From the NCBI RefSeq assembly GCF_006542275.1, contig NZ_CP041217.1, positions 4,342,501 through 4,406,500 on the forward strand: DNA of 64,000 nt, in the 5' to 3' direction. Of this stretch, positions 45,110 to 47,408 are shown one piece after another. This DNA is from Saccharibacillus brassicae (lineage in GTDB: Bacteria > Bacillota > Bacilli > Paenibacillales > Paenibacillaceae). A program made the translations under genes and the position numbers. The first letter of the stretch is position 1; every line of letters starts with the position of its first letter. The notes beneath the pieces were generated by a model. That model saw nothing but the letters and a program-made list of their open reading frames with translations, ran no database searches and was not told where the DNA came from.

Positions 45110-45459
45110 TCATTCCGGCGATTTCCAATAACACTTCAACTTGAGCAGCTCCGAAATCGGTCCGTTTCCGGCCTGCGACAAAAAGGTTGCGACCTCCGAT
45201 TTGAAAGTGACTTCCGCAAACTCCACTTCAATCTCGCTGAGGTCGTAATGCCTTGCTCGTTAAGGGATTTGGCAATTCTGCCGCTGCCGTATCCGTCGTG
45301 TTTGACCCAATCGAATATTTGTCTAACGCAAGCGGCTTGAACGTCATCAAGGGCAAGGGCCATAAGGGCTTTGCCTTTTTTATTTGTGAGTCCCGAATTT
45401 ACGAGGGCATAACCGAAAGGAGCGCTGCCGCCGCGATAGGGTACACGAGCCCAAATCAT
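45110..45459 (-). pseudogene. remnant of a large serine recombinase joined to a second gene fragment
   Basis: From 45459 the minus strand encodes a piece of the recombinase domain of large serine integrases (PYRGGSAPFGYALVNSGLT, QIFDWVKHDGYGSGRIAKSL, NEQGITT). The catalytic resolvase domain and the C-terminal zinc region are both missing. From about 45247 down to a TGA at 45110-45112 another frame reads plausibly protein-like (YDLSEIEVEFAEVTFKSEVA, then ELLKLKCYWKSPE), as if a deletion joined two gene ends. It lies directly beside tRNA-Ala, a usual integration site, and is best read as the scar of an excised or decayed element. Confidence 0.7.
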
Positions 45460-45541: not shown

Positions 45542-45614
45542 GGGGCCTTAGCTCAGCTGGGAGAGCGCGTCGCTGGCAGCGACGAGGTCAGGGGTTCGAG
45601 CCCCCTAGGCTCCA
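45542..45614 (+). tRNA. tRNA-Ala (anticodon GGC)
   Basis: 73 nt. The acceptor GGGGCCT pairs with AGGCTCC (one G-U), with D-arm AGCTCAGCTGGGAGAGC, an anticodon stem closing on loop CTGGCAG (anticodon GGC), and T-arm with GGTTCGAGCC. The discriminator is A; CCA is not encoded. Confidence 0.97.
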
Positions 45615-46982: not shown

Positions 46983-47097
46983 CGGAACGTTGCAGGGCAA
47001 GGCGAAACGAAGCGGAGCCAACTCGAAGTCGATTCGAAGCCAAATGAAGCCGATCTCAAGCCGAAGTGGGAAAAAAGCTGGCGCCCTTTTATCCAAC

Positions 47098-47141
47098 GTT
47101 CAGCGCGATTTCAGATTGTTTTCAGGTTGGGCGATTAAGAT
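47098..47141 (+). promoter_or_regulatory. 11-bp-phased TTTCAG direct repeats and -10, unit 1
   Basis: GTTCAG (47098), TTTCAG (47109) and TTTCAG (47120) are exactly 11 bp apart, the geometry of an OmpR-family regulator site. A -10-like TAAGAT (47136-47141) starts 16 bp after the last repeat. No -35 hexamer is at the normal distance, implying activator dependence. Confidence 0.6.
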
Positions 47142-47147
47142 GTAATC

Positions 47148-47206
47148 AATCCCCTCTACACATAGAGTTTGACCCCGGCGACGCCACGCTGCCGGGGTCC
47201 TTTTTT
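47148..47206 (+). ncRNA. predicted csRNA-like small RNA, copy 1
   Basis: The predicted start is about 7 nt after the -10. An unpaired 5' segment contains CCCCTCT (47151-47157), able to pair with GAGGGG-type ribosome binding sites. The intrinsic terminator is GACCCCGGC/GCCGGGGTC (47171-47199) with TTTTTT. Estimated length is near 60 nt, with no open frame. The layout resembles the cia-dependent small RNAs of streptococci, which have a CiaR repeat promoter, anti-SD segment and terminator. This is prediction only. Confidence 0.45.
47171..47206 (+). terminator. intrinsic terminator of small-RNA unit 1
   Basis: Perfect 9-bp stem GACCCCGGC/GCCGGGGTC, then C and TTTTTT. Confidence 0.9.
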
Positions 47207-47287
47207 CGTCCGGACGCGGAGGGGTCAGACCTACTCCTGAGCAATCAGAATTCATCGTCATCGCGAATCGCCGCAAAAGTCACGAAT

Positions 47288-47342
47288 TTTAAGCCAATCT
47301 TTAACTTGGCATCAGGTTGCTTTCAGCTTGAACGGTTATTCT
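47288..47342 (+). promoter_or_regulatory. 11-bp-phased direct repeats and -10, unit 2
   Basis: TTTAAG (47288), CTTTAA (47299), CATCAG (47310) and TTTCAG (47321) keep the 11-bp phase approximately or exactly. The -10-like TATTCT starts at 47337, again 16 bp after the last repeat. Spacing is identical to unit 1, 201 bp upstream. Confidence 0.55.
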
Positions 47343-47348
47343 AGGTTC

Positions 47349-47408
47349 AACCCCTCTTAACCAGATCTAAGACACACCCGGCGGAGCCACCCCGCCGGGC
47401 CTTTTTTT
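47349..47408 (+). ncRNA. predicted csRNA-like small RNA, copy 2
   Basis: CCCCTCT recurs at 47351-47357, within the first few nucleotides of the predicted transcript. The terminator is CCCGGCGG/CCGCCGGG (47377-47399) followed by CCTTTTTTT. The rest of the sequence has diverged from copy 1, so the promoter repeats, the CCCCTCT segment and the terminator are the conserved parts. Confidence 0.45.
47377..47408 (+). terminator. intrinsic terminator of small-RNA unit 2
   Basis: Perfect 8-bp stem CCCGGCGG/CCGCCGGG, then CC and seven T. Confidence 0.9.

Follow-up and report, generated by a model that had tools for sequence, protein, structure and literature searches.

A candidate family of very short, C-rich small RNAs with four-box direct-repeat promoters in Paenibacillus and its relatives

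The window, that is, the whole 64-kb stretch of DNA analysed here, contains two units 201 bp apart, each consisting of four boxes, a -10 element, the string CCCCTCT and an intrinsic terminator, which bears out the sequence-only reading that had described the pair. The boxes start at 47087, 47098, 47109 and 47120 in unit 1 and at 47288, 47299, 47310 and 47321 in unit 2. The 11-bp step proposed for the repeats proved exact, and the array was extended to four boxes per unit, the distal ones being degenerate in both. The features of the two units are as follows.

47087-47125 (+): unit 1 operator, with boxes TTTTAT (47087-47092), GTTCAG (47098-47103), TTTCAG (47109-47114) and TTTCAG (47120-47125)
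47136-47141 (+): unit 1 -10 element, TAAGAT (TTAAGAT), beginning 16 bp downstream of the first base of the last box
47148-47206 (+): predicted small RNA 1, about 59 nt, its start deduced from the -10 spacing; a training row
47151-47157 (+): CCCCTCT, candidate anti-Shine-Dalgarno seed of RNA 1
47154-47167 (+): small 5' hairpin of RNA 1 (CUCUA/UAGAG), with poor support across the family
47171-47206 (+): unit 1 intrinsic terminator, stem 47171-47199, T-run to 47206
47288-47326 (+): unit 2 operator, with boxes TTTAAG (47288-47293), CTTTAA (47299-47304), CATCAG (47310-47315) and TTTCAG (47321-47326)
47337-47342 (+): unit 2 -10 element, TATTCT, likewise beginning 16 bp downstream of the first base of the last box
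47349-47408 (+): predicted small RNA 2, about 59 nt; a training row
47351-47357 (+): CCCCTCT, candidate anti-Shine-Dalgarno seed of RNA 2
47377-47408 (+): unit 2 intrinsic terminator, stem 47377-47399, T-run to 47408

Both predicted RNAs surpass all 200 dinucleotide shuffles in folding stability (z of -4.5 and -4.2), largely because of the terminator. A simple consensus scan of the window listed neither promoter and, of the two terminators, that of unit 2 only, and its terminator count for the region was not above that of shuffles (6 vs 6.5). Model R3, which covers promoters only and represents the second class described below, gave just two matches in the 64 kb, exactly at the two promoters (E values of 1.2e-4 and 1e-3) and spanning the two proximal boxes and the -10 only (model positions 25-56 and 23-55 of 56); R3 was built without the window rows, but its rows were found with R1, a covariance model from 15 units of the genus that includes them. 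An imperfect inverted repeat (47219-47233 and 47342-47356; 80% over 15 nt), in which GAGGGGTC directly after terminator 1 matches the complement of the 5' end of unit 2, may be chance. Further upstream, a reverse-strand open reading frame (45136-45459, -) resembles, by eye, a serine-recombinase fragment and lies near a tRNA-Ala gene (45542-45614); it is perhaps the remnant of an integrated element.

Comparison with related genomes identified the parts of the unit that are conserved. Specifically, 52 promoters, including both window operators as training rows of the promoter model, align without a gap over 54 columns, and the boxes across the family read TTMAK. A run of at least four C starts 63-67 bases into the unit in 118 of 124 distinct units, a count made after dropping four spurious R1 matches (L044, L045, L049 and L051) and partly circular, since R1 includes the C-run. 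With the RNA start set 2 nt before it, the C-run is predicted to be unpaired with a probability above 0.8 in 105 of these 118 units and below 0.5 in none of the 118, and the median predicted RNA length is 59 nt. The sequence supports the earlier proposal that the C-rich 5' end, here predicted to be exposed, could pair with G-rich ribosome binding sites. When R3 was applied to ten genomes, 27 of the 29 matches examined, of 50 listed, led into a C-run and a T-run, the two failures being weak partial matches; this check is less circular than that with R1, yet mostly training rows were examined and the R3 rows were themselves R1 matches. Among the R3 matches that were not training rows, five of seven led into a C-run and a T-run, one an earlier R1 match.

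The covariation that had been suggested as a check is strong in the terminator stem, where 97.8% of cells are paired and all nine of nine pairs have changed on both sides (in 61 distinct rows fitted to the model, four of them spurious), and weak in the small 5' hairpin, which retains pairs in 37-69% of cells and was on that ground rejected as a family feature. The sequence-only reading had named conservation of the terminators alone as an outcome that would speak against it; repeats, C-run and terminator are instead kept together in the relatives. The sequence supports the interpretation of the two units as paired small RNA genes.

The family extends well beyond the window. A DNA search with both units found matches in 9 of 98 genomes, the window's own included, all of one genus, with the tandem pair present in the window's genome (G000) and in G005, G010, G013 and G015, the second unit being degenerate in G014. 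R1 matched all 16 genomes of the genus, with 2-5 copies each, 163 of 197 genomes of the family and 154 of 198 sampled genomes of the order, the last set partly overlapping the family genomes. In a class sample, which also yields a false-positive rate for R1, 25 of 250 genomes matched, of which 22 belong to the window's family and 3, out of 228, lie beyond it with weak matches (E values of 2e-4 to 8e-4); among the rows listed, the smaller part of the total, those beyond the family are marked as the same class. Two further copies occur in the window's genome, a third at G000:C1:665445-665563 and a fourth, more distant, at G000:C1:4583668-4583795. In a named genome collection, the exact class I pattern occurs in 23 stretches, every title being Paenibacillus. 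The box pair alone is uninformative, since the forward and reverse count in the window's genome (28) is not above that of a backwards control (33): two of the three exact TTTCAG-N5-TTTCAG occurrences (118577 and 118588) are one simple TTTTTCAGGTC repeat lacking a C-run, and among 25 occurrences with one mismatch, one is the third small RNA copy, one is unit 1 and several overlap long frames.

The copies adjoin differing genes in 20 loci inspected by eye, which fits the expectation for trans-acting RNAs. Rfam scans covering the window together with 24 loci returned zero families at gathering score over any unit, with a few overlaps far below threshold; in the same scans the model of LhrC, presumably held in Rfam, had no match over the units at threshold, the sub-threshold matches being to other families, and a match to RsaE was likewise absent. 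A survey of P. riograndensis SBR5 reported 27 intergenic small RNAs, three of them annotated by Rfam, as given in PMC5670726, and our search of the open-access literature found no earlier description of the present family. The units apparently form an undescribed family, of which the genomes of Paenibacillus and its relatives carry several copies. In G006, a tandem pair of this family has BsrC (RF01410; L069:164-251), a small RNA known from B. subtilis, at a distance of about 1 kb.

A second promoter-only model (R2), searched against the genus, drew attention to a candidate regulator. Of its sites outside the small RNA units, 20 regions were read, and in six of them the site is flanked by a divergent gene for an OmpR-type regulator on one side and by GT2 or YkcB-like genes on the other; these six are in G000 (the window's genome), G005, G007, G010, G014 and G015. 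The regulator open frame of the window's genome is at G000:C1:425686-426414. In relatives the regulator has a kinase gene as its neighbour, which Pfam confirmed in G007. The other regions comprise four before the gene of a small secreted-looking protein (by eye), two that precede only a YkcB-like gene (that in the window's genome having an E value of 0.01 and a gene identified by Pfam), two upstream of a MerR-like gene and one upstream of a chemoreceptor-like gene (by eye), two at a Fur-like palindrome and two that lack a clear assignment (by eye); some of these non-regulator sites, before unrelated genes, score as well as the regulator site, and two score better. In G008, a weak R2 site (E value of 0.18) precedes VTC, DUF4956 and Cthe_2159 genes (Pfam; L190:1606-5463), which are possibly under the same system. 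Two genomes also carry an intergenic unit (L173:2284-2420, at G000:C1:2078283, and L189:1671-1800) in which 11-bp TTCAT/TTTAAG boxes are followed by TGATAATCATTATCA, a palindrome resembling a Fur site, and by a terminator-like hairpin, the copy in the window's genome carrying CCACCTCC; an Rfam match was not found for this unit, possibly an iron-regulated small RNA.

Orthologues of the regulator (E value of 1e-60 or better) were present in 21 of 30 genomes, at 23 loci, and an 11-bp box pair lies within 260 bp before the aligned regulator gene at 16 of these 23, whereas shuffles lead one to expect 0.56 and a control stretch within the gene gave 0 of 23. The seven loci that lack the pair are six of one genus, which carry TTCAG and, 11 bp on, TTCAA, barely outside the pair rule, and a distant paralogue, L214. 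The boxes at the regulator locus, like the family, its promoter architecture, C-run and terminator, are read directly from the DNA. Among solved structures (PDB only), the nearest relative of the regulator of the window's genome is PhoP of Mycobacterium tuberculosis (E value of 1.4e-58), followed by PrrA (6e-44); one orthologue, L180, reached the cut-off of none of the 25 NCBIfam models listed, of 102 matched. PhoP is reported to bind a directly repeated 7-bp motif whose copies are strictly 4 bp apart, and to bind more tightly when three or four motifs stand in a row (PMC4832192), a repeat geometry that equals the 11-bp register of the unit boxes. Of six named PhoP base contacts (N212, V213, E215, S216, Y217 and Y220), three are identical in the alignment (N, E, Y), the others changing from V to I, S to V and Y to S. 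The sequence supports an OmpR-type operator built of direct repeats in an 11-bp register, as had been proposed, and the class I regulator is most likely an M. tuberculosis PhoP-like response regulator.

Judged by the first box, which reads TGT instead of TT, 40 of the 124 units belong to a second class, with the pattern TGTAAY-N5-TGTAAT followed by TTCAT-type boxes, although many second boxes read TGAAAT; the window units are class I. The window's genome holds both classes: class I at window positions 47087 and 47288 and at G000:C1:665445, and class II at G000:C1:4583668. The promoter of this last copy (L093:1669-1796) is composite, with TGTAAC-N5-TGAAAT upstream of TTTCAG and TTAAG boxes, in keeping with the composite promoters generally, in which two TGTAA-type boxes precede two TTCAG/TTAAG boxes. 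In eight genomes that have the small RNAs and in which the regulator was not found at an E value of 1e-60, the units read comprise 19 of class II and 1 of class I; where the regulator is present, in 14 genomes, they comprise 17 of class I and 14 of class II, two of the three G047 units counted as class I being hybrids. A class I unit was read in 10 of the 14 genomes with the regulator versus 1 of the 8 without (Fisher p = 0.024, which overstates the association because the genomes are related), in a table that leaves out the window's genus and one class I-rich genus and covers part of the units; in the remaining 4 of the 14, class II units only were read. This co-occurrence supports assigning class I to the PhoP-like regulator, and shows too that such an assignment does not explain everything.

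Two broader models can be envisioned for the second class. Under the first, which we put forward tentatively and consider possible though rather doubtful, an order-wide small RNA family would have kept its RNA constant while the four-box 11-bp operator was handed between regulators, PhoP-like in class I and WalR-type in class II where the PhoP-like regulator is missing, with composites joining both. Under the second, which appears unlikely, another or an additional regulator would control the family: WalR or a close relative would bind class II, alone or with the PhoP-like protein, and the class I promoters of the window would be derived. The frequency of class II, its predominance in genomes that yielded no PhoP-like regulator, and the perfect match of 13 of the 124 units to TGTWAH-N5-TGTWAH, printed as the WalR site in PMC6624279, all point in this direction. 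The perfect pattern is absent from the window units, which are class I; the TGAAAT reading of many class II second boxes departs from it, and nearly all of the class II promoter matches examined lead to a small RNA-like C-run and terminator, unlike what would be expected of a WalR regulon.

That the units are csRNAs, driven by a CiaRH orthologue and homologous to those of streptococci, is improbable. The sequence-only reading had drawn this parallel, and the TTTAAG/TTTCAG boxes at 11 bp do resemble the TTTAAG-N5-TTTAAG operator as given in PMC8186281, the units also being intergenic, short, terminator-ended and present in several copies. The exact TTTAAG-N5-TTTAAG is nevertheless absent from both units, the best matches occur in Paenibacillus-type genomes and the few class-sample genomes matched beyond the family (3/228) match weakly. 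CiaR as the regulator gains no support here, the candidate regulator with matching boxes being nearest to M. tuberculosis PhoP in a comparison that contained no CiaR sequence.

Also distinctly improbable is an Rsm/Csr-like decoy, in which the C-run would titrate a protein instead of pairing with mRNAs. Several short copies sharing one motif would suit such a role, but CsrA recognises GGA rather than C-runs. In addition, the UCCC motifs of other Gram-positive small RNAs bind Shine-Dalgarno sequences, as described in PMC4132741. For pairing with mRNAs, a search of the genus for AGAGGGGWT-N1-8-ATG returned recurrent candidate ribosome binding sites, the best at a quinol-oxidase-subunit-II-like lipoprotein gene (by eye), where the string AGAGGGGATCYACATG occurs in at least 9 of 16 genomes (six read). 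The 5' end of RNA 1 has nine bases complementary to the ribosome binding site string of this gene, AGAGGGGATCYAC-ATG in L269 (G000:C1:1728673) and relatives; the next candidate is an ABC-type lipoprotein gene. As ribosome binding sites favour an AGAGGGG-type string anyway and the backwards control is an unfair null, we claim no target.

Pho boxes, too, are 11-bp direct repeats of an OmpR-type regulator, and the same small RNA genes might on this layout be driven by a B. subtilis-type PhoP of the phosphate (Pho) regulon. We regard this as very improbable and rejected a Pho regulon operator: the pstS promoters were found and scanned and their boxes differ, the repeats upstream of pstS in the genus reading TTTACA (by eye) and the best four-box matrix score in 16 pstS regions being -4.8, against a training minimum of 19.9. 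Least probable of all, the units would not be genes but repeated terminators or an attenuator leader belonging to a neighbour, the promoters being chance resemblances, a view to which the strong conservation of the terminator and the failure of the consensus scan to list either promoter might lend colour, but boxes, -10 and C-run are conserved along with the terminators, the copies stand beside differing genes (by eye) and promoter-only matches lead into a C-run and terminator.

Our results suggest, as the probable reading, that the units encode multicopy, paralogous, redundant, trans-acting anti-Shine-Dalgarno small RNAs of about 59 nt, of which class I would be driven by an M. tuberculosis PhoP-like two-component regulator and form the repressing arm of an envelope response. 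From the sequence features we infer transcription, regulator binding, an envelope signal, anti-Shine-Dalgarno pairing and targets, in the following scheme. Activated OmpR-type response regulators would align on the four 11-bp boxes, which would substitute for a -35, and bring RNA polymerase to the -10; the RNA would start at or beside a run of four to six C and end at the strong terminator; and the C-run, remaining single-stranded, would pair with the G-rich ribosome binding sites of several mRNAs and block their translation. The envelope signal would act through the PhoP-like regulator on the class I small RNAs and, because the regulator gene with similar boxes diverges from envelope glycosyltransferase genes, the small RNAs would be the repressing arm of the response. 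If this is so, Paenibacillus and its relatives own a conserved, several-copy set of very short small RNAs driven by a two-component system, an envelope two-component system gains a testable small RNA arm, and a parallel emerges between the PhoP-like regulators of Paenibacillus relatives and those of mycobacteria. The family would also offer a series for the study of operator change with a retained RNA and, if the operator was indeed handed between regulators, a natural series of regulator exchange on one small RNA output.

Several known systems invite comparison. RoxS is a C-rich, Shine-Dalgarno-binding small RNA of Firmicutes. RsaE and FsrA, named in PMC4132741, are of the same kind, and the present RNAs would resemble all three if the pairing that we propose takes place. 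LhrC of Listeria comes in several copies, depends on LisRK, is induced by envelope stress and binds its targets through UCCC motifs (PMC4132741); multiple copies, two-component dependence and a C-rich target-binding motif are predicted here from sequence as well. By contrast, the CU-rich motifs of LhrC number three and are placed in loops and single strands and, according to PMC4132741, a consensus site for LisR was not known, whereas the present units have one 5'-terminal C-run, a four-box operator and an RNA of about 59 nt. The csRNAs, several small RNAs transcribed from strong promoters with a TTTAAG-N5-TTTAAG operator (csRNA1 being 93 nt; PMC8186281), share the direct-repeat operator with 11-bp geometry and the multiplicity of small RNAs; the units described here differ in their four boxes, the C-run at the extreme 5' end, the shorter RNA and the associated regulator, whose nearest solved relative is PhoP of M. 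tuberculosis. In that species, Mcr7 is a PhoP-dependent non-coding RNA predicted to cover the tatC ribosome binding site (PMC4038636), and a small RNA driven by a PhoP-type regulator is what we propose here; Mcr7, as described in the same source, is about 350 nt long and confined to the M. tuberculosis complex. On the best reading, the family would work in the manner of the csRNAs, of LhrC and, as regards the regulator, of Mcr7, yet is to be filed under none of them.
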